From the IMG/VR virus record IMGVR_UViG_3300009080_000026, positions 1 through 41,785 of that record: DNA of 41,785 nucleotides; one strand, written 5' to 3'. The DNA is from a virus. The notes under the pieces were generated by a model, which saw only the letters and a list, made by a program, of their open reading frames with translations, searched no databases and had not been told where the DNA came from. Numbering within the stretch: the first letter of the stretch is position 1; each line of letters opens with the position of its first letter. A program made the translations under genes and the position numbers. Shown here in pieces: positions 4,498 to 41,772 of the stretch.

Positions 4498-5553
4498 ATG
4501 GTAAAAAGTTACAAAGAATATATCAAAGAGCATTTTGGGGCTATCACAATAGAATATCCTCCTGAGCATATGTTTGTTAGAAACCCTAGTGTACCGACTC
4601 CGCTATCTATAAACACTCATGTAGGAGGAATAGGAAGAATGCCTATGCATTGGAATAATTCTCCTTATTTATCAGGCGGTTTTGGAGGTGCAGGAGGTGG
4701 AAGGTTTGGACAAGACCCAACTGGTGAAGAAGATATCAATAATGATAAACGTAATGAAATATCAGACCTTCAGTCAGATAGAGCTTTAGACTATATGGTA
4801 GAGAAATTTACATCAATAGAAAAAAGCTTAGGTGAAACTGAATATGAAAATATATGCATGTCAATGTTAAACGACATAGATTCAGGTAACCTTAATCTAG
4901 AAGAAGACGATATAGATGGAACTATAAATGATAAAATATTAGAAATAGGAGTAGAGATTTTTTACGATACGATAAACACTCCAACTGAAGGAGACCCCGG
5001 AGATTATTATAATCCTCCAGATGGAGGAGATAGCGGTGAATATACATCAGAAATAGTAGGTCCTATAAACAGTGAAAACTCTAAAACATTTAATACTATT
5101 TTTAGAATAAATTCTACTAACGATCTTCCTTCTTTAGATGAAATTGTAGTTAACTATACTAAAAATAAAATTTCAATATCAGCAGCTATCCTAAAAACTG
5201 GATTATCTAAACATGGAATATTAGACATTTTAGATGCACAAGTTAATTATATTGGAAGAAGACTGGAATCAAAATATGAAAATTTAGATGAAGGTTATTT
5301 TGAAGGAAATGGATATTATGAAGATCATGAAGACATATATGAACAATTCGATGAATTAAATTTAGGTATTTTGCTATATTTAACTATGCTTTGTAAAAAC
5401 TCATTAAACAACAACACAGCTGATACATCTAAGAAAATTCGTGAGATAAATAATAAATATAAAGACGTTTCATATTTTAAAAGAAAAGATAAAATAGAAG
5501 ACGTAAATAGGATATTATCAATGGTGATAAATATTCCAGAAAAATTAAAATAG
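4498..5553 (+). CDS. Hypothetical virion-associated protein (351 aa)
   Basis: Begins MVKSYKEYIKEHFG with I-K-E at residues 9-11, a predicted prohead-protease site. A Gly-rich segment (SGGFGGAGGGRFGQ, about residues 61-74) is followed by an acidic, mostly helical body and a Pro/Gly/Asp stretch near residue 165 (EGDPGDYYNPPDGGDSGEY). No enzymatic motif is seen. It has the same type of N-terminus as neighbours at 5559 and 5773, suggesting co-packaged internal head proteins. Function unknown. Confidence 0.65.
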   Translation: MVKSYKEYIKEHFGAITIEYPPEHMFVRNPSVPTPLSINTHVGGIGRMPMHWNNSPYLSGGFGGAGGGRFGQDPTGEEDINNDKRNEISDLQSDRALDYMVEKFTSIEKSLGETEYENICMSMLNDIDSGNLNLEEDDIDGTINDKILEIGVEIFYDTINTPTEGDPGDYYNPPDGGDSGEYTSEIVGPINSENSKTFNTIFRINSTNDLPSLDEIVVNYTKNKISISAAILKTGLSKHGILDILDAQVNYIGRRLESKYENLDEGYFEGNGYYEDHEDIYEQFDELNLGILLYLTMLCKNSLNNNTADTSKKIREINNKYKDVSYFKRKDKIEDVNRILSMVINIPEKLK

Positions 5554-5558
5554 AGAAC

Positions 5559-5783
5559 ATGAAAAATTATATTAAAAATTTTAAAGGATTTGTATCAGAA
5601 TCTATTGAAACTAATACTAAAGAAATTCAGTTATTAGATCAGAAAAAAGCTTTGCAAGAAAAACTAAAGCAAACTACAGATGACATTCAAAAAACTCAAA
5701 TTGAGTCAGACATTTCTAAATTAGACATAGAAATAGAGCAACTTAGACAAATAGAAGATCAGGAAGAAGCCAATGAAGCATAA
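5559..5783 (+). CDS. Small coiled-coil protein with capsid-targeting-like N-terminus (74 aa)
   Basis: Begins MKNYIKNFKGFVSESIETN, nearly identical in its first eight residues to the protein at 14989 (MKNYIKDF). A V-S-E at residues 12-14 is a near match to the protease site. The remainder is a strongly predicted coiled coil (LQEKLKQTTDDIQKTQIESD). Possible scaffold or core component. It overlaps the next gene by 11 bases. Confidence 0.6.
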   Translation: MKNYIKNFKGFVSESIETNTKEIQLLDQKKALQEKLKQTTDDIQKTQIESDISKLDIEIEQLRQIEDQEEANEA

Positions 5784-32347: not shown

Positions 32348-33052
32348 TTAATCTCCATAATATTCAGAATATCTAAAGTTTTTACATATCATAGTTGAAA
32401 CAACTGTTTTATTTTCAGGTATATTATGTTCTTTCTTAATACTATTATTTATAACTACATTCATTGTTTTGTCATTTAATTGAGACAATATATTTTCATC
32501 TAATATTTCTCTAACTAGTTTATTATCGAAATATATAAATATTCCATGAGGGAACCATTCTACACTATATGTATGAAAATCTTTGCTTGGACATTTCCAG
32601 CCCAGCCAATGTTCTTTTGCTCCAATCATGTAATTATCAGGAGATTTTCCTAGATGAACATTCGTTTGCACTTTCCAGAAATCTCCTAGTAAAGCATTTA
32701 TATTCCAATTAAAATAGCTTCCTTTATGATTTGAATATGCTTCGAAAACATCTATCTCAGGGGGCCATGACTCAAAGGCCCACATCCAAAAAGCTGGCCA
32801 TAAACTAGGTCCCTTTGGAAGTTTAATATCTATGTCAAATCTACCATGTTTAAATTTAGTTGTACAGTTTATCAAACCTACTCCGAATGGTGAAATTACT
32901 CCATCTATTTTTTTAGGGTTATAGTGTGTCTTTAAGTATAATTCATCATCTATTATTTTAACTGCGCTTTTATCATACCAACATTCTGTTTTTTCAGGGT
33001 GCATTAATCCCCATCTTTCACCCACTTGCCAATCATAGCCTTGCCATTTCAT
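32348..33052 (-). CDS. Glycoside hydrolase family 16-like protein
   Basis: 234 residues. The catalytic signature E-x-D-x-x-E is present as PPEIDVFEAYS (Glu99 nucleophile, Asp101, Glu104 acid/base), preceded by FKHGRFDIDIKLPKGPSLWP and AFWMWAF, the family-typical beta strands, and followed by FHTYSVEWFPHGIFIYFDNK. GH16 enzymes cut beta-1,3/1,4 glucans, laminarin, agar and carrageenan. No signal peptide is seen. It could be a virion depolymerase or act inside the cell on a glycan made by neighbours. Confidence 0.85.
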   Translation of the reverse strand: MKWQGYDWQVGERWGLMHPEKTECWYDKSAVKIIDDELYLKTHYNPKKIDGVISPFGVGLINCTTKFKHGRFDIDIKLPKGPSLWPAFWMWAFESWPPEIDVFEAYSNHKGSYFNWNINALLGDFWKVQTNVHLGKSPDNYMIGAKEHWLGWKCPSKDFHTYSVEWFPHGIFIYFDNKLVREILDENILSQLNDKTMNVVINNSIKKEHNIPENKTVVSTMICKNFRYSEYYGD

Positions 33053-33143: not shown

Positions 33144-33716
33144 ATGAAAAACTTAAATATATTAAAAGACTTAGAAGATTATATTAAAAATATGAGAAGC
33201 GAGGATAAGAGACATATTGAACATATGATTTCTTCAAATAATGCACTTTCCTATAAAGATTTTACATATGGGACTACTCCATATGAAACAGCTATAACGC
33301 TAATAGATTCAGTTAGTAAAAAGTACGATAGATTCGTAGTTGTTGGCGCAAGCATAGGGTGGATGAATTTTTACTTTAATGACAAATATCCAGATATAGA
33401 AACTTTAGGAATAGATATACATAGAGGTAGAATAAGATTTGGAAAATCTCTAATAAAAAAATATAATTTATCTAATATATCATTAGATGTAGATGATTTA
33501 TATAAATTTGAATTTAAATCAACTGACTTAATATGGATGAGTAATTGCTGTTTTGATAAAAATAGTTTTGAAGATATTTTTAATAAGATCATAGGTGAAC
33601 ACCCTGAAATATCTATAATATCATATAAACCCTTCAGTGGAGCTAAATATAAGCGTTACAAGTTACCTGTTAGTTGGATGGAAAATCAACCGTTCTGGGT
33701 GTATGATGAGAAATGA
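33144..33716 (+). CDS. SAM-dependent methyltransferase-fold protein (DOT1-like layout)
   Basis: 190 residues. After YGTTPYETAITLIDSV comes motif I VVVGASIGWMNFYF and motif II LGIDIHRGRIRFG with an acidic D-x-H, then DLIWMSNCCF. The TPYETA followed by GxS/G motif resembles DOT1-type lysine methyltransferases, but this is weak. It overlaps the SET-like gene by 4 bases, and the two with the ATP-grasp gene form a tightly overlapping operon. Confidence 0.6.
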   Translation: MKNLNILKDLEDYIKNMRSEDKRHIEHMISSNNALSYKDFTYGTTPYETAITLIDSVSKKYDRFVVVGASIGWMNFYFNDKYPDIETLGIDIHRGRIRFGKSLIKKYNLSNISLDVDDLYKFEFKSTDLIWMSNCCFDKNSFEDIFNKIIGEHPEISIISYKPFSGAKYKRYKLPVSWMENQPFWVYDEK

Positions 33717-34345
33717 ATATTAAAAAAGGAAATATCATACCGGAGGGTTTAGAACTAAAAGAATCACCTTTGCATGGACTTGGGGTTTTTGCAACAAAAT
33801 TTATTCCAAAGGGTAGTAATCTAGGCATCTGTCATTACTATGACTATAACGAAAGACCAGTTAAACATTTAAGAAACCCCTTAGTTGGTTTTTTTAATTA
33901 CTCGGTCAATAAAAACGCATGGTTACCTATAGTAAAAAAAGAATTTACAAATGGAATAGGTTCGGTTACTGAATTAATAACAACTAAAGATATAGAAAAA
34001 GGTGAAGAAATTTTATTAAGGTATAGTTGGTATGACCCTACAAAACCAGATACTAAAAAAAATAAACATTACGTTCCTTTACCGGATTGTGTTTCTATAG
34101 AGGAAAGAGATGGGGCCTATACTCTTTATGCAACTAAAGATATTGTAAAAGATTTTGATTTTGGGTATTCTCATAGCTATTATAGTAAATCTGATTTATA
34201 CGAACCTAATCCAGTAGGAGGATATTTAATAGAATCTGCTACGCCTAATTGTAATATCTTTAAAAAAGATAAAGAGTTACGTTTAAAATCAAAAAGAAAA
34301 ATAAAAAAGGGAGAATCGATAAGTGTAAGTTATGAAATATTATAA
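33713..34345 (+). CDS. Tandem SET-like domain protein
   Basis: 210 residues containing two SET-type units of about 100 residues. Unit 1 (about 10-112): SPLHGLGVFATKFIPKGSNL, GFFNYSVNKNAWLP and ITTKDIEKGEEILLRYSW. Unit 2 (about 122-210): GAYTLYATKDIVKD, PVGGYLIESATPNCNIFKK and KRKIKKGESISVSYEI. In typical SET lysine methyltransferases the key motif is NHSxxPNC; unit 1 has NYS but lost PNC, unit 2 has PNC but IES for NHS. So the two might complement one another, or one may be inactive. Confidence 0.75.
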   Translation: MNIKKGNIIPEGLELKESPLHGLGVFATKFIPKGSNLGICHYYDYNERPVKHLRNPLVGFFNYSVNKNAWLPIVKKEFTNGIGSVTELITTKDIEKGEEILLRYSWYDPTKPDTKKNKHYVPLPDCVSIEERDGAYTLYATKDIVKDFDFGYSHSYYSKSDLYEPNPVGGYLIESATPNCNIFKKDKELRLKSKRKIKKGESISVSYEIL

Positions 34346-35090
34346 TTATTTACCGTCTAGCTTAACTCAATGGTCGCCTGAATTTGACTGTTCGTACATT
34401 CACACTAGGTATAAAACTCATATTGAAGATAATTATATGTTAACGCTAAGGCGTAAAAACAAAATAGAATGTATAAATATGAAAAAACTTTATAATAAGT
34501 ATGAAGTTAAAAAATTTTTTGAAAAACATGGTTTAAACGTACCTACATTATATTGTTATTCTACTAAAGATTCTGATATTTCACATGCATTAAGGGAACG
34601 GTATGTTGCTAAACCTGCTCATATGTCAGAAAACGATGGAGTTTTTATTAATGATAAAGACTTTAAAAAAGTAGATAGAAAACTTAGGGAATGTTTAAAG
34701 TCTTCATCAAGAGCAACTGAACCTGAGATGATGAAACAAACTGAAAAAGGAATAATAGTAGAAGAATATATCGAATACGATTATGAATTTAAAGTATTTG
34801 TTCTATATGGATGTCCAATAGTTGGTGATTTAAGAAAAGGATCAAAAGAATGGCATAGAGTAGATATGATAGACAAAAGCAATACTTATTTTAATTGGGA
34901 TAAAGAATATGACATTTGTAAAGCCATAGCAAAAGAATTAAAGATAGATTTCTTTAGAATAGATTTCTTTTACAATAAAAAAGAGGACAAACTTTACGCA
35001 GGTGAAATGGCTTTTAGACCTTCTACACTACTTGGTAAAGAAATAGAAAAATATGTACTTTCTAAGTGGAAAGAAATGGCTAAATATTAA
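34332..35090 (+). CDS. ATP-grasp ligase (TupA/ATPgrasp-like)
   Basis: 252 residues. NKYEVKKFFEKHGLNVPTLY and RERYVAKPAHMSENDGV (ATP-binding Lys), IVEEYIEYDYEFKVFVLYG, then FFRIDFFYNKKEDKLYAGEM with the acidic metal ligands and the final Glu/Arg (FRPSTLLG). This matches the ATP-grasp fold, closest in style to TupA-like teichuronopeptide or sugar-associated ligases that form amide bonds. Overlaps the SET-like gene by 14 bases. Confidence 0.78.
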   Translation: MKYYNYLPSSLTQWSPEFDCSYIHTRYKTHIEDNYMLTLRRKNKIECINMKKLYNKYEVKKFFEKHGLNVPTLYCYSTKDSDISHALRERYVAKPAHMSENDGVFINDKDFKKVDRKLRECLKSSSRATEPEMMKQTEKGIIVEEYIEYDYEFKVFVLYGCPIVGDLRKGSKEWHRVDMIDKSNTYFNWDKEYDICKAIAKELKIDFFRIDFFYNKKEDKLYAGEMAFRPSTLLGKEIEKYVLSKWKEMAKY

Positions 35091-35145: not shown

Positions 35146-35997
35146 CTATTTCCTAAGAGATTTCATTTTAGCCAGTTCTGAACCAATTACTGATCTTGGA
35201 CCGTATCCTCCCATTGCTCTTTCAATATCGCGTATTCCTTTAACCAACTTCATTAGTCCGCTAGGTTCAACTGAGGACTCTTGATCGCTTCCCCAATTAG
35301 TTCTGTCTAAAGTAATATGTCTTTCAACCCACGTTGCTCCAAGAGTCACTGCAGCCATTGTGGTTGTTAAACCATATTCATGTCCAGAATAACCGATATC
35401 AGTATTATGTCCATATTTGTCTTTTAGCCACGTTATGTATTCTAACCTGAGTTCACCTACATTGGATGGGTAACTGGAATTAGTGTGCATTACAATATCA
35501 GGTTGGATTGCGTCCATGCATCTAACCACTTCTTCTTCAGTACTCATTCCGGTACTTACTATCATATGATCAAATTTATGATCTGCATATAAACATAAAT
35601 CGATATCAGTGATTAAAGCAGACGGTATCTTAGCTATCTGTGGACACATGCGCATCATAAAATCAACAGAAGGCTTATCCCATACTGATGCGAATAACCC
35701 AATCGGTTTATCTTCGCAATATGCATATAATTCTTGCCACTGTTCCTCATTGAACTCGATGTCATGTTTGTATTGAATATAGGTGGTTTCTTCAGTTCTC
35801 CATGGAACTCTCTTAGGTTTAGTTTTTTGTTCTTCTGGAACACAGTGATCTGGTGATCTCTTTTGGAATTTAACCCAGTCACAACCTGCAACAACGGCTA
35901 CGTCGATTAGTCTTTTTGCATTGTCTAAGAATTTAGACCGGTCGTTACCATATGCAAAATTGATTCCTATTTCTGCTATTATTTTTGTGTGTTGCAT
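35146..35997 (-). CDS. neuB: NeuB-type N-acetylneuraminate (sialic acid) synthase
   Basis: Condenses phosphoenolpyruvate with an N-acylmannosamine-type sugar. 283 residues carry the NeuB TIM barrel: IIAEIGINFAYGNDRSKFLD, DWVKFQKRSPDHCV, IGLFASVWD, AKIPSALITD, MIVSTGMSTEEEV, MHTNSSYPSN, DIGYSGHEYGLTTTMAAVTL and WVERHITLDRTNWGSDQESS. The usual C-terminal antifreeze-like (SAF) domain is absent. GC content in a sampled line is about 42%, far above neighbours near 22-30%, suggesting more recent transfer. NeuA (CMP-sialate synthetase) is not in the window. Confidence 0.92.
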   Translation of the reverse strand: MQHTKIIAEIGINFAYGNDRSKFLDNAKRLIDVAVVAGCDWVKFQKRSPDHCVPEEQKTKPKRVPWRTEETTYIQYKHDIEFNEEQWQELYAYCEDKPIGLFASVWDKPSVDFMMRMCPQIAKIPSALITDIDLCLYADHKFDHMIVSTGMSTEEEVVRCMDAIQPDIVMHTNSSYPSNVGELRLEYITWLKDKYGHNTDIGYSGHEYGLTTTMAAVTLGATWVERHITLDRTNWGSDQESSVEPSGLMKLVKGIRDIERAMGGYGPRSVIGSELAKMKSLRK

Positions 35998-36006
35998 GCG
36001 TTTATG

Positions 36007-36837
36007 TTATTGCCAAGTTGCATATGGAATTTTAAATATGTTATCTACAGTTTTAAGAGATACATTAGGGGTTTTTGGAAATATAATTTTATTAAATCCA
36101 AAAGTCTTGGTATCTTCATTCACTAGTTTTATACTGTTTACCAATTCACTAGTTCTAGCTCTATTGAACACGGCTCTTGTAGTAGATGTGTATTTTTTAT
36201 TGAGATCCTTTCTAATAGTTTCCATGTGGTGCATAGTTATATTTGATATAGGTAGCCTCACATCACCGCCTTTAGCAATTGCGTTTATTCCCCTAGTAGG
36301 GTCGCATCTAGTAAAGAACGATTTGCTCATCCTAGAGGAAGCATTGACTTTGCATATAAAAGGAACTGACGAACTATCATATCCTCTATGATATATTGGG
36401 AGATTAACATAATTTATAAATGAACATGAACTTCTTGTGATATTACGTTCTATGATGATATCTTTGGCATTTTTAAACTCATCGGCTTTATAAAATTCAT
36501 CAACGTCCATTGATATAAAATGAGTACAACCCTGCTTAACACATGCGTCTAATCCAAATTGTCTTTTACGCATTTCAAAAGCCTTAGATGTTTGTATATT
36601 AGATGCACATGCTCTATTTAGATTTTTGAAATCAGAGAATTTATCTAATGAGTTGATTAGTTTTTTTCTATGGAGCCTACTTAGTATGTCTTTATCACTC
36701 TGTGACATCTGTGATCCAAACCATGAAATATCCTGATATGCTACGTGTATAAAATCAACGTGTTCTCTTATTTGCTTTATAGAATATTCCAATAGTTCTA
36801 TTCCATCAAATACAGTATATGATACTCCTAATTTCAT
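36007..36837 (-). CDS. Glycosyltransferase (GT-A, family 2-like)
   Basis: 276 residues. It starts MKLGVSYTVFDGIELLEYSI; the metal/nucleotide-sugar site is HFISMDVDEFYKADEF (DxD). Upstream, MRKRQFGLDACVKQGCTHF and downstream SINYV-type strands fit a GT-A fold. The acceptor is unknown. It ends 9 bases before the neuB start and begins at the last base of the dehydrogenase gene, so both neighbours are in the same operon. Confidence 0.72.
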   Translation of the reverse strand: MKLGVSYTVFDGIELLEYSIKQIREHVDFIHVAYQDISWFGSQMSQSDKDILSRLHRKKLINSLDKFSDFKNLNRACASNIQTSKAFEMRKRQFGLDACVKQGCTHFISMDVDEFYKADEFKNAKDIIIERNITRSSCSFINYVNLPIYHRGYDSSSVPFICKVNASSRMSKSFFTRCDPTRGINAIAKGGDVRLPISNITMHHMETIRKDLNKKYTSTTRAVFNRARTSELVNSIKLVNEDTKTFGFNKIIFPKTPNVSLKTVDNIFKIPYATWQ

Positions 36838-37748
36838 TACTTATTATTTCTTATTTTGTAAGCTAATTCAACACTTGGAATAGCGTCTCTTAATTTAAAT
36901 CCTTCTCCTATTAGTATTTTTTCATACGATTTAGTGTGCAGATCAGTAAATCCTGTGCTGAATTCAAATGAACTATCATCTATGCAAATTGAACGGTATA
37001 CTGGCAACCCCTTTTGTTTATATTCTAAGGGTAAATCATCAGAATCAATGCTCAATTTCCATGTCACGTTAGCCCGATCTAGTTCTAGATATCCGCTAGC
37101 ACTCGTTTCAGAATGATTAGAAGTAGAATTTTTAACATTTCCAAATATCCAAATGAGCATGTCAAAGAAATGAATTCCTATATTAGTAGCAATTCCTCCC
37201 GATTTTGACATTTTATTTTTCCAGGATCTCAAATACCAATTACCTCGACTTGTAATATAATCTAAAGTAACTTCATACGTTTTATCAGAAGGCCCATTAT
37301 CTATCTTTTCTTTTAATTCAATAACCGATGGATGCAAACGTAGCTGTAGAATATTGTTAATTTGCTTACCAGTTTCAATTTCTAATTTCATTAGTTCATC
37401 TATATTCCAAGGGTTCAATACTAGAGGTTTTTCACAAATAACATCTGCGTCATTTCTTAGCGCAAGTCTAATATGAGCATCGTGTAGATAATTAGGAGAA
37501 CATATTGATATGTAATCTATTTTACGATCAGTATCTTTTAACTTATACATATGACGATCAAACATTTCAGATTCTAAGAAAAGTTCTGCTTTTGGAAAAT
37601 ACGTATCAATTATTCCAACGCTATCATTTTTATCTAATATTGCAACTAGATTGTTTCCAGTTTCTTCTATAGCTTTCATGTGGCGAGGAGCAATATATCC
37701 AGATGCTCCAATTATTGCAAAATTTTTCGTTTGTTTGTTATTTTTCAT
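36837..37748 (-). CDS. wlbA: UDP-N-acetylglucosaminuronate 3-dehydrogenase, WlbA/WbpB-like
   Basis: Gfo/Idh/MocA oxidoreductase, 303 residues. FAIIGASGYIAPRHMKAIEE (Rossmann), YISICSPNYLHDAHI, DVICEKPLVLN (catalytic Lys), YEVTLDYITSRGNWYLRSWK, GIATNIGIHFFDMLIWIFGN (His) and EFSTGFTDLHTKSYEKIL match the WbpB/WlbA subfamily closely. These oxidise C3 of UDP-GlcNAcA for diamino-uronic acid sugars. The partner aminotransferase was not found in the window and may lie beyond it. Confidence 0.88.
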   Translation of the reverse strand: MKNNKQTKNFAIIGASGYIAPRHMKAIEETGNNLVAILDKNDSVGIIDTYFPKAELFLESEMFDRHMYKLKDTDRKIDYISICSPNYLHDAHIRLALRNDADVICEKPLVLNPWNIDELMKLEIETGKQINNILQLRLHPSVIELKEKIDNGPSDKTYEVTLDYITSRGNWYLRSWKNKMSKSGGIATNIGIHFFDMLIWIFGNVKNSTSNHSETSASGYLELDRANVTWKLSIDSDDLPLEYKQKGLPVYRSICIDDSSFEFSTGFTDLHTKSYEKILIGEGFKLRDAIPSVELAYKIRNNK

Positions 37749-38443
37749 GGTGTGAAATCTTTATAGAAGTTATTTTTACTTTTCATTTCCTGATGTTCTC
37801 GTGTGAAACTTGCTACATAATTTTTTCTAAAGGTTCCACCTATTGGAATCCTCTTAGTTAGATTATCATCGTGTAAATAAGCAGTAAGTAAAATTTCATT
37901 TAATGATTCAATACAACTCGGTTTAGCCAATTGAATTCTTCTTTTGTATTCTGTGTCACAACCTGCCCTGAAACTATCAAAATAACCTATTGCGTCGAAT
38001 ATTTCACGTTTCATAACTAGCATCGATTCATTGGTTTTTGTATTAGTAGACATAGTTCTTTTAGTTCTATAATCTACTCTCTTAAACCCACATCCTGTTG
38101 CCATTGTAGATTCATTTGAGTTATTTAGCATATTCAATTGCTTATTAAATCTATCACTATGCGATATATCATCAGCTCCATGTATTGCATAATGAGTCCA
38201 TTCTTTATTATTCTCCATATGTTTAAGTGCTACATTCAAAGAATAGTAAGGTCCTTTATTACTATGATTTTGCAACACTGTTGCTTCGTCAAATGATTTT
38301 GCAATACGATATGTATTATCAGTAGAAGCATCATCTACAATTACCAATTTTAGATCGACGCTTTGATCTAAAATCGATTGTATCGTATTCTTTATAAATT
38401 GACCCGCATTATGTGCTGGAATTATAACTAGTAATTTATCCAT
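37745..38443 (-). CDS. Family 2 glycosyltransferase
   Basis: 232 residues. MDKLLVIIPAHNAGQFIKNT, KLVIVDDASTDNTYRIAKSF, NKGPYYSLNVALKHMEN and YAIHGADDISHSDRFNKQL are the GT2 nucleotide and metal sites. The short C-terminus holds MVMKREIFDAIGYFDSFRAG and CDTEYKRR (catalytic acidic region). It overlaps the dehydrogenase start by 4 bases (ATGA). Acceptor unknown. Confidence 0.88.
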   Translation of the reverse strand: MDKLLVIIPAHNAGQFIKNTIQSILDQSVDLKLVIVDDASTDNTYRIAKSFDEATVLQNHSNKGPYYSLNVALKHMENNKEWTHYAIHGADDISHSDRFNKQLNMLNNSNESTMATGCGFKRVDYRTKRTMSTNTKTNESMLVMKREIFDAIGYFDSFRAGCDTEYKRRIQLAKPSCIESLNEILLTAYLHDDNLTKRIPIGGTFRKNYVASFTREHQEMKSKNNFYKDFTP

Positions 38444-38445
38444 AA

Positions 38446-38973
38446 TTACTTTAGATTTTTAACTCTTGCTGGATTTCCATAAACAACACTATTGTCTTCT
38501 ACATTTTTAGTTACAACTGCTCCCATTCCAATAATTGCGTTTTCTCCAACTGTAATTCTATTTCTAATCAAACATCCTATTTTAAGTTTTGCACCATCCT
38601 TAATAGTAACGTATCCGCCCAGAACAGTGGATGTGCATATTTCAGTATTATTTCCAACATTCACATCGTGCCCAAAGTGAGAATGAGCCATAATTATATT
38701 ATTGTCTCCAAGTTCAGTAGTTTGACCTTCATCAAATGGACATTGTATCGTTACGTGCTCAGAAATAACGTTATTATCTCCAATGATAACCTTTCCTTTA
38801 AATCCCCTAGGATCCTTTCCACGAATTTCACCATTACTTCCAATAACTGTAAATGGTCCAATTGTATTATTTTTTCCTAACGTAACGTTGTCTCCCACTA
38901 TCGCATTGATGTGTATTCTATTGTTACGCTCTAATGTTATCCATTCCATGTTGTATATTTCATCAGGTGTCAT
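38446..38973 (-). CDS. LpxA-like hexapeptide-repeat acyltransferase
   Basis: 175 residues. Left-handed beta-helix repeats of the [LIV]-G-x4 type fill the chain (AIVGDNVTLGKNNTIGPFTV, IIGDNNVISEHVTI, IIMAHSHFGHDVNVGNN, AIIGMGAVVTKNVEDN, VVYGNPARVKNL). The His-containing IMAHSHFGHDV resembles LpxA; N-acetyltransferases such as WlbB are built similarly. It likely acylates a nucleotide sugar in the glycan pathway. Confidence 0.82.
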   Translation of the reverse strand: MTPDEIYNMEWITLERNNRIHINAIVGDNVTLGKNNTIGPFTVIGSNGEIRGKDPRGFKGKVIIGDNNVISEHVTIQCPFDEGQTTELGDNNIIMAHSHFGHDVNVGNNTEICTSTVLGGYVTIKDGAKLKIGCLIRNRITVGENAIIGMGAVVTKNVEDNSVVYGNPARVKNLK

Positions 38974-38988
38974 ATTAATTTATTATTT

Positions 38989-39603
38989 TTAATCATTCTT
39001 TCTAAACAAGTAGAAATCGGATATTGACGTTTCGCCGGCGTTATCTACATCTTTGTTATATGGGTATAAGTTATCAACCTTTTTAATTAATGACCAATCC
39101 GGTGCATTTAATTCAACCCATTTAGTAAATTTTCTATATCTCATATGATTTCCAGTATAATCGGAATCATAATCACTTGAATATATCAATACCAATTTAT
39201 CAGATGCTGCGAATAGATTTCGCATATACTTATCAAATACATCATCTTCAACTAGATGAAATATAACATCAATTGACATACTTATATCTGCGTCTGTTCC
39301 ATGTAATGCAATAAGATTATCAGTGTATTCGTAAAAATCCTTTGACAAATCATTTTTATATAATTCAGAGCATACATCAACAGCTGTAGTAGAAACATCA
39401 AATCCAACATATGAATTAGTGTTCATATCACGAAGTTGATTTCCATCACCACATCCAAATTCAACAATCTTGTTAATTGAGAATTCATCAATGTATGAAT
39501 TTATTATTTTGTTTTTAAACTCTGCGAGTCTACCGTATGAACCCGATCCAGAGTTACCACCGTTACTATATCTGCTTTCCCAGAAATTCTTTGAATTTAT
39601 CAT
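38989..39603 (-). CDS. SAM-dependent methyltransferase
   Basis: 204 residues. Motif I IVEFGCGDGNQLRDM, motif II YVGFDVSTTAVDVC, DISMSIDVIFHLVEDD (motif IV, post-I) and LVLIYSSDYDSDY match class I methyltransferases of the polysaccharide type. It probably methylates a sugar or protein in the same pathway. It begins 4 bases inside the upstream glycosyltransferase gene. Confidence 0.8.
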   Translation of the reverse strand: MINSKNFWESRYSNGGNSGSGSYGRLAEFKNKIINSYIDEFSINKIVEFGCGDGNQLRDMNTNSYVGFDVSTTAVDVCSELYKNDLSKDFYEYTDNLIALHGTDADISMSIDVIFHLVEDDVFDKYMRNLFAASDKLVLIYSSDYDSDYTGNHMRYRKFTKWVELNAPDWSLIKKVDNLYPYNKDVDNAGETSISDFYLFRKND

Positions 39604-40214
39604 ATGTATCTATTTTTTATTTTATCTTTTTCAACTTGACGTTTTGCCTGATATTCAGGACTTGATATTCCTAATGATTTTTGACTAGAATGTCGCCTGT
39701 ACTTATATGTGAATGAATTTAAATATCCCATCTTATAGTTGTTTGATAATAGCCACATATTGAAGTCATATTCCTCACCAGTCCACAGCGTTAGATCCAT
39801 TGCTCGTTTTTCAAAGCACCGTTTTCGATATACAACAGTTCCACCGTGAATTGCATACCGGTTTAGCATACTATCTAATGTTAGAACAATATCGGACGGA
39901 ACCCACATGTCCTCTGTTCCATCTTCAAAAAAGTTGATTGCGTTTGAGTGAATGAAATCAACCTCAGAATTATTTTTAAAATACTCAACCGTATCTGCTA
40001 TACTATTTGTAGTAAGTAGATCATCTTCGCATAAATATCTAACTAATTCACCAGTTGCTTTTTCCAATCCTCTATTAAAATTTTCAGAAGCCAGGCAATC
40101 TCCATGTTCTATTAGAATTTCAATATCATCGTAAGTTTGATTTTCTAAGCTTTCTATAGCTTCTTCTAAATATCCCCTGCTTACGTTGTAAGGAATAATT
40201 ACTGTTACTTTCAT
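39600..40214 (-). CDS. Family 2 glycosyltransferase
   Basis: 204 residues. MKVTVIIPYNVSRGYLEEAI, LENQTYDDIEILIEHGD, NFNRGLEKATGELVRYLCED and FIHSNAINFFEDG give the GT2 pattern, with the DxD-like CEDD; GGTVVYRKRCFEKRA and WTGEEYDFNMWLLS are C-terminal catalytic motifs. Overlaps the methyltransferase gene by 4 bases and follows the large glycosyltransferase by 1 base. Confidence 0.86.
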   Translation of the reverse strand: MKVTVIIPYNVSRGYLEEAIESLENQTYDDIEILIEHGDCLASENFNRGLEKATGELVRYLCEDDLLTTNSIADTVEYFKNNSEVDFIHSNAINFFEDGTEDMWVPSDIVLTLDSMLNRYAIHGGTVVYRKRCFEKRAMDLTLWTGEEYDFNMWLLSNNYKMGYLNSFTYKYRRHSSQKSLGISSPEYQAKRQVEKDKIKNRYI

Positions 40215-40215
40215 A

Positions 40216-41772
40216 TTATTTTGTATTTAATTTCCATTTTACAGATTGTAGTATTCTGATCTGATCATTCCACATCTCGTGGCGTTTCTCAAATAGAGTA
40301 TCTTTATTTCCAATATCAATTGCTTGAATGTGATCAGCTTTATGCTGTCGGCATAATATTGGAATATTATTTAGTTGAGCATATTGACCCAACCATAAAT
40401 CACACATGCCGTGTTTTTTAATTAAGTCCTTTGGTAATTTAATCTTATTGTTATCAAATACCATAACTCCAGTTCCACCTAAATGTACCCAAACATCAGT
40501 TGGATTATCCTTTATACAATGATATGCCGGTTTTAAAGTATCATGGAAATTTTTTGGAGTAACTGGAACTCTTTTTCCATGTATAGTTACTAATATTTCT
40601 CCATTGTATTTATTTAGTGAGTTGATATGCTCAGTAAAGAAATCAGCAGGATAAAATAAATCATCGTCAACTGTGAAATAATATTCGTTCTTGTTAGTGT
40701 ATGCCCAATGAAATTTACCAGAATCTTTTATATTTGGTACGCCAATTAAATATTCTATCCTAGGATCTGTCGGAAAATCGGCAGGAATTTCCTTAAATTC
40801 ATTAAGGTATATTCTAAATTTATCAATGAAATCATGTTCTAACATTTTCTTCATACACGGCTTAAATGAATATTGACGCGCAGGATATGTTGCCATATTT
40901 ACAGTTATTTGTTTTTTATTAGTTTCTACCATTGTAAGTTTATTAAATTCGGGCTTTATATGAAGTTCAGGACGTCTAGCTTTCTCATTTTCATGTATTA
41001 TTTTTATGTACGATTGCCTAAGCTCAGACATACTAGTTATTGTATTAGTAAGTTGTCCATCATGTTCACCACGATCATATAAAATCGGGATTCGTATAAC
41101 TCTTCCAATTTTCTTACGTAATCTAAATATCATATCAGTATCAGCAGCGCATCTCCATGATCTGTACCCTCCGACCGTATTGAATCTATCTTTTCTTATG
41201 AATAATACACCATCATGTTTTGAAATCTTAGCATCATTATTACATGACATCGTTGAGATTAAATTAGAATGCATCACATCATCTGCTCCAAATGTTATAA
41301 AATATTCATCGTTTGGAATCTTTTGAATTAGTGAATTAATCACAAGATATGGACCAGTATTCACGTCAGCATAATATACTTCCAGATTATGATATTTATG
41401 AGATATTGATTTTACCTTCTCTAGTGTTTTCTCACATGCATCGATTCCTAGTAATATACGATGAGCGGGTTTATCTTGACTCATTATAGAATCTAAACAC
41501 TCTTCTATAAAAGCGCTAGCATTATATGCGGGAATTATTATACTTATATTAAAATCAGATTCATTTACGTTATTGTTTATAACTGGTTTATGTGAGTTTA
41601 CTACCTTACTTTTTCTCTCCTTTACGCGCTCTACATATGCATTCGTATTTACTATCCCACTAAGAGTTTTATATGAATTCCAATCTTCCTGTTTATTATA
41701 ACTATTCCAAATAGAATTTATTCGTTTGAACATAAAACGAGCGTCGTTGTTTTTTAATAATTCAATATCCAT
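40216..41772 (-). CDS. Two-domain glycosyltransferase
   Basis: 518 residues. Domain 1 (about 70-250) is GT2: ISIIIPAYNASAFIEECLDS, TGPYLVINSLIQK, YFITFGADDVMHSN and TVGGYRSWRCAADTDMIFRL. Domain 2 (about 290-500) starts TVNMATYPARQYSFK and has EYYFTVDDDLFYPADFF, a second GT-A metal site, with HGMCDLWLGQYAQ. A polymerase-style enzyme adding two sugars is possible, as in KfoC-like synthases. First gene in the visible operon. The ATG is 13 bases from the window edge. Confidence 0.8.
   Translation of the reverse strand: MDIELLKNNDARFMFKRINSIWNSYNKQEDWNSYKTLSGIVNTNAYVERVKERKSKVVNSHKPVINNNVNESDFNISIIIPAYNASAFIEECLDSIMSQDKPAHRILLGIDACEKTLEKVKSISHKYHNLEVYYADVNTGPYLVINSLIQKIPNDEYFITFGADDVMHSNLISTMSCNNDAKISKHDGVLFIRKDRFNTVGGYRSWRCAADTDMIFRLRKKIGRVIRIPILYDRGEHDGQLTNTITSMSELRQSYIKIIHENEKARRPELHIKPEFNKLTMVETNKKQITVNMATYPARQYSFKPCMKKMLEHDFIDKFRIYLNEFKEIPADFPTDPRIEYLIGVPNIKDSGKFHWAYTNKNEYYFTVDDDLFYPADFFTEHINSLNKYNGEILVTIHGKRVPVTPKNFHDTLKPAYHCIKDNPTDVWVHLGGTGVMVFDNNKIKLPKDLIKKHGMCDLWLGQYAQLNNIPILCRQHKADHIQAIDIGNKDTLFEKRHEMWNDQIRILQSVKWKLNTK

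Follow-up and report, generated by a model that had tools for sequence, protein, structure and literature searches.

What does a marine phage do with a protein of 210 amino acids that consists of two SET domains in tandem, neither of which carries an intact NHSxxPNC motif? The stretch of DNA analysed here (the window) is a linear IMG/VR virus record of 41,785 bases with phage genes, including those for portal, head closure, endolysin, DNA primase, helicase and ligase. On its plus strand, an open reading frame that begins with an ATG at 33713 and whose stop codon ends at 34345 encodes the protein in question; start, stop and length agree exactly with the interval 33713–34345 given in a preliminary description of this DNA. 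The tandem SET-like repeats reported there are real: the Pfam SET family (PF00856) matches the protein in two stretches at 51.4 bits, against a curated cut-off of 22.4 (E = 1.7e-13), and phrog_28741 does so too, again in two stretches (E = 3.9e-21). Against a profile made from single-domain phage SETs alone, residues 10–109 score 71.2 bits and residues 121–209 score 40.2 bits, counted in the stop-to-stop frame, which has one extra residue before the Met; these scores identify each half as a SET domain beyond what chance would give. Unit 1 (residues 1–109, 33713–34039, plus strand) and the degenerate, SET-like unit 2 (residues 119–210, 34067–34342, plus strand) are joined by the linker TKPDTKKNK (residues 110–118, 34040–34066, plus strand) and match each other directly with 26% identity over 96 columns (E = 2e-4). 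In place of NHSxxPNC, direct reading and alignment give NYSVNKNA in unit 1 (residues 62–69, 33896–33919) and IESATPNC in unit 2 (residues 173–180, 34229–34252), both on the plus strand and both as described before. The observation of two SET domains in tandem with altered NHSxxPNC motifs is thus confirmed.

The same architecture recurs in three other viral contigs. Two of them (L001 and L002; loci L015 and L096 belong to the same contigs) show 99.8% and 99.4% identity in DNA over about 10 kb, and the third (L003) encodes a tandem protein that is 85% identical to that of the window and carries LESTIPNC as the motif of unit 2. Since one of the three is only 85% identical in protein, the tandem is not an accident of assembly. 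Comparison of the window with L003 gives a dN/dS of 0.18 in unit 1 and of 0.25 in unit 2; therefore, purifying selection keeps both halves. Among the loci read, we found no other tandem or paired SETs and no locus with two SET reading frames.

Which residues has each unit kept? The search for single-SET relatives, proposed earlier as a check, yielded 128 distinct ones for comparison, drawn from phages, viral contigs and genome records of bacteria; conservation reaches 85% or more in 25 of their columns. Of these, single members keep 20–25, compared with 17 in unit 1 and 12 in unit 2. Across the 128 relatives, the S, GxG, G, R, F, N, H, N, E and Y columns are conserved at 95–100%, with GxG, R, both N, H, E and Y at 97–100%. 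Unit 1 retains S18, GLG22–24, G38, H41, R54, F60, N62, N68, E99 and Y104; its N-terminal PLP is mostly gone, and its one striking loss is H63, which has become Tyr. Of the features of active SETs, unit 1 accordingly has G22, G24, N62, N68 and Y104 and lacks the motif His. By alignment to MLL-type SETs, the conserved Tyr sits in the ELxYDY segment, and we take it to be the catalytic Tyr of SET enzymes. Unit 2 retains YxPLP, G151, H154, GG169–170, N179, Y207 and several structural Gly and Pro, and is without S, GxG, R, F, the first N, H and E. It has AYT at GxG and IE at NH (LE in the variant), so both of these active-SET features are absent. The earlier statement that each unit keeps the SET frame consequently holds for unit 1 only, where GxGxxA reads GLGVFA; unit 2 has AYTLYA there.

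The small single SETs of phrog_28741, which marine phages and bacteria encode (P-SSM7 gp204, P-RSM6 CPXG_00131 and Pelagibacter phage Kolga gp27), comprise about 100 amino acids with a YxPLP start, GxG, RTPLGGFINHSxxPNC and GEELTLKY, and both tandem units align to them along their length with 24–45% identity. Of the hallmarks of this family, YxPLP is kept only in unit 2 and R54 only in unit 1. Within NHSxxPNC, P is often A or S in the single-SET relatives, and C can be A, V, L, S or T. Because these two positions vary freely, the His is the only conserved residue of the motif that is missing from unit 1, and unit 1 needs nothing that unit 2 could offer. The 128 relatives are all single-domain and the motif His is present in 127 of them, whereas the tandem protein has two fused domains and has lost the His in both. 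The one exception (L074, 36–347) is an otherwise ordinary single SET with the motif NYSDEPNC and thus with Tyr in place of His, as in unit 1.

Structure prediction, the other check that had been proposed, yields SET-like models for both units. For the whole protein, AlphaFold2 reaches a pLDDT of 78 and a pTM of 0.55, with high confidence for unit 1 and lower confidence for parts of unit 2; the pLDDT falls below 50 in the linker region (residues 113–115 and 117–120), and at this pTM the packing of unit 1 against unit 2 is not predicted with confidence. Modelled alone with single-SET relatives, unit 2 has a pLDDT of 89.3; this model leans on the single-SET rows in its alignment and so cannot stand as proof by itself, but the 40-bit sequence score is independent of it. 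Three rows from the phage collection were left out of the alignments for the models. In Foldseek, both unit models match SET structures, including vSET of PBCV-1 (3kma; TMq 0.69 for unit 2), and the unit 2 model also matches the PR domains of PRDM2, 4, 5, 10 and FOG1. The models therefore predict a SET fold for unit 1 and for unit 2.

How, then, could such a protein work? Our preferred reading, to which we assign a probability of roughly 0.6, is that the covalently fused SET pair is an asymmetric pseudo-dimer, with unit 1 as the catalytic domain and unit 2 as a pseudo-SET, and that it acts together with the product of an adjacent ATP-grasp gene. This builds on what can be read in the DNA: the two SET domains, the pattern of retained and lost residues, purifying selection on both units and the linkage to the ATP-grasp gene. 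Judging from its near-intact set of conserved residues, unit 1 is probably a mostly workable enzyme; it would bind S-adenosylmethionine and methylate a lysine, with Tyr63 in the place usually taken by His. Unit 2, which is maintained despite the loss of its cofactor residues, as its dN/dS indicates, would not bind the cofactor. It is probably an internal partner and not one half of a divided active site, and could serve the folding of unit 1, the docking of its substrate or its regulation. By analogy, the fusion may replace a homodimer of single-SET relatives: vSET, a minimal SET enzyme, is described as dimeric (Manzur 2003, as cited in PMC7019647). vSET (A612L), an H3K27 methyltransferase, is likewise a minimal viral SET that is matched by both unit models; unlike the tandem protein, it has separate chains, a canonical motif and a eukaryotic histone substrate. 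PRMT7 and PRMT9 combine a conserved N-terminal with a degenerate C-terminal domain and are thought to act as pseudodimers, and the C-terminal domain of PRMT7 is inactive but required (PMC10908127). However, they have the unrelated class I Rossmann fold and an arginine substrate, which makes the likeness an analogy only. The PR domains of PRDM proteins and FOG1 share the SET fold and have changed NHSxxPNC residues, and that of FOG1 has lost its Asn and Cys and shows no AdoHcy binding (PMC4146578); in contrast to the phage protein, they belong to eukaryotic transcription regulators with zinc fingers and are not tandem SETs.

Unit 1 could be inactive as well, because it lacks the motif His that nearly all relatives have. 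With both units catalytically dead, the tandem would resemble many PR domains and serve to bind the ATP-grasp partner or a peptide that is methylated or rich in lysine. The absence of the His from both units, the long branch of unit 1 (1.52 substitutions per site) and the proposal that catalytically inactive PR domains act as readers (PMC4146578) are all consistent with this, but unit 1 retains every other near-invariant column (GxG, R, both N, E and Y) at a dN/dS of 0.18, and the single SET with the same Tyr is otherwise ordinary. Moreover, some PR domains without the canonical residues have been reported to be active (PMC4146578). We consider two dead units unlikely, though the idea deserves some weight. 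The loss of function could also be confined to unit 2, as a decaying duplicate. Many of its conserved residues are lost and its branch is very long (2.55), but the frame is open in four contigs, dN/dS between the variants is 0.25 at a dS of about 0.39, and both variants have nearly the same residues where GxG, R, N and H would stand; simple decay thus has only a slight chance of being right.

The preliminary description had favoured a different idea: complementary loss, by which the catalytic motif was divided and each unit would supply the lost half of the other in a composite or domain-swapped active site. At first glance the letters invite it, with N and S but neither P nor C in unit 1, PNC without NH in unit 2 and the PLP leader kept in unit 2 only. 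Yet the P and C vary in the relatives, and the missing His is absent from both units. The number of columns kept by both units, 8, matches the 8.16 expected under independent loss (P = 0.61), and each unit models as a complete SET-like fold without swapping. A divided motif is therefore very improbable, and the earlier interpretation as a whole is partly supported. We also find it rather improbable that unit 2 gives its PLP leader in trans to the cofactor site of unit 1, in a scheme where the pair and the ATP-grasp ligase would modify one target, of the phage or of its host, in two successive steps, methylation and the ligation of an amino-acyl group or a peptide.

For the asymmetric pseudo-dimer, the linkage to the ATP-grasp gene is a lead to the substrate. 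The ATP-grasp ligase-like gene (34332–35090, plus strand) lies downstream and overlaps the SET gene by 14 bases. Its matches all stay below curated cut-offs: ATPgrasp_ST (sugar-transfer) at 2.3e-4, with a best Pfam score of 20.9 bits against a cut-off of 31.4; grasp-with-spasm peptide maturase, of the ribosomal peptide maturases, at 5e-5 (1.1e-5 in the related contig L097), with an NCBIfam score of 22.7 against 230; and a weak R2K_2 match (E = 0.026). It has been proposed that R2K-clade ATP-grasp ligases from phages modify proteins of the host (PMC4431377, PMC7824862), which fits a protein-modification role here but does not prove it. Upstream, a class I methyltransferase-like gene (33144–33716, plus strand) overlaps the SET gene by 4 bases; Pfam Methyltransf_25 matches it at 1.2e-4, below the cut-off, and the best match of its profile is Rickettsia protein lysine methyltransferase 2 (5doo; E = 3.7e-6). 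Between the window and L097, dS is 0.41 for the SET, 0.45 for the ATP-grasp and 0.64 for the methyltransferase gene, compared to 0.89–1.71 for the flanking genes. This block of low dS (33144–35090 in the window, 4131–7048 in L097) is best explained by a cassette that was exchanged together more recently than its surroundings. Given their low shared dS relative to the flanks, the SET and ATP-grasp genes are suggested to form a co-transferred protein-modification cassette. Within such a small, mobile protein- or peptide-modification cassette, the SET pair and the overlapping ATP-grasp product would probably share one target.

In scans of viral contigs, ATP-grasp and methyltransferase neighbours appear only in the tandem-SET lineage, and BLASTP found none beside single SETs. 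A neighbour census likewise found no partner gene shared by the single SETs in phages, and a defence-system library gave no match for the SET or ATP-grasp protein. In L097, an additional reading frame of 322 amino acids (4713–5681) stands between the methyltransferase and the SET gene; its best Pfam match is DUF4508 at 0.0067, and it belongs to no clear family. Farther out, the window encodes a glycosyl hydrolase family 16 protein (32348–33052, E = 2.4e-18) and, on the minus strand (35146–41772), NeuB, a GFO/IDH/MocA oxidoreductase, glycosyltransferases, a hexapeptide transferase and a methyltransferase. The sugar-gene run of a related phage also has a cytidylyltransferase.

In their tree, unit 1 and unit 2 are not sisters; however, an AU test does not reject one common clade for both (p-AU 0.247). 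Internal duplication, as previously assumed, is therefore one possible origin, and fusion of two different SETs is another. SET proteins had also been called uncommon in phages, and this depends on where one looks: sequenced phage genomes rarely encode the family, as only 12 of 50,697 phage records matched a single-SET query (P-SSM7, P-RSM6, Kolga, AG-345-P14 and Stenotrophomonas phages), but it is common in marine viral contigs, with at least 520 IMG/VR stretches encoding relatives. In a literature search, we found no paper treating SET proteins of bacteriophages. This compact family occurs widely in viral contigs from marine sources, and genome records of marine bacteria have it too; its tandem form lends itself as a natural experiment on whether a minimal SET enzyme requires a partner domain. 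On the bacterial side, large contigs from marine Flavobacteriaceae and SAR86 carry relatives, as do further genome records of bacteria. One close family of single SETs, which has NHH in the motif (L119–L154), may be a resident bacterial gene, because it is found repeatedly on contigs of Flavobacteriaceae, where its neighbours are partly the same.
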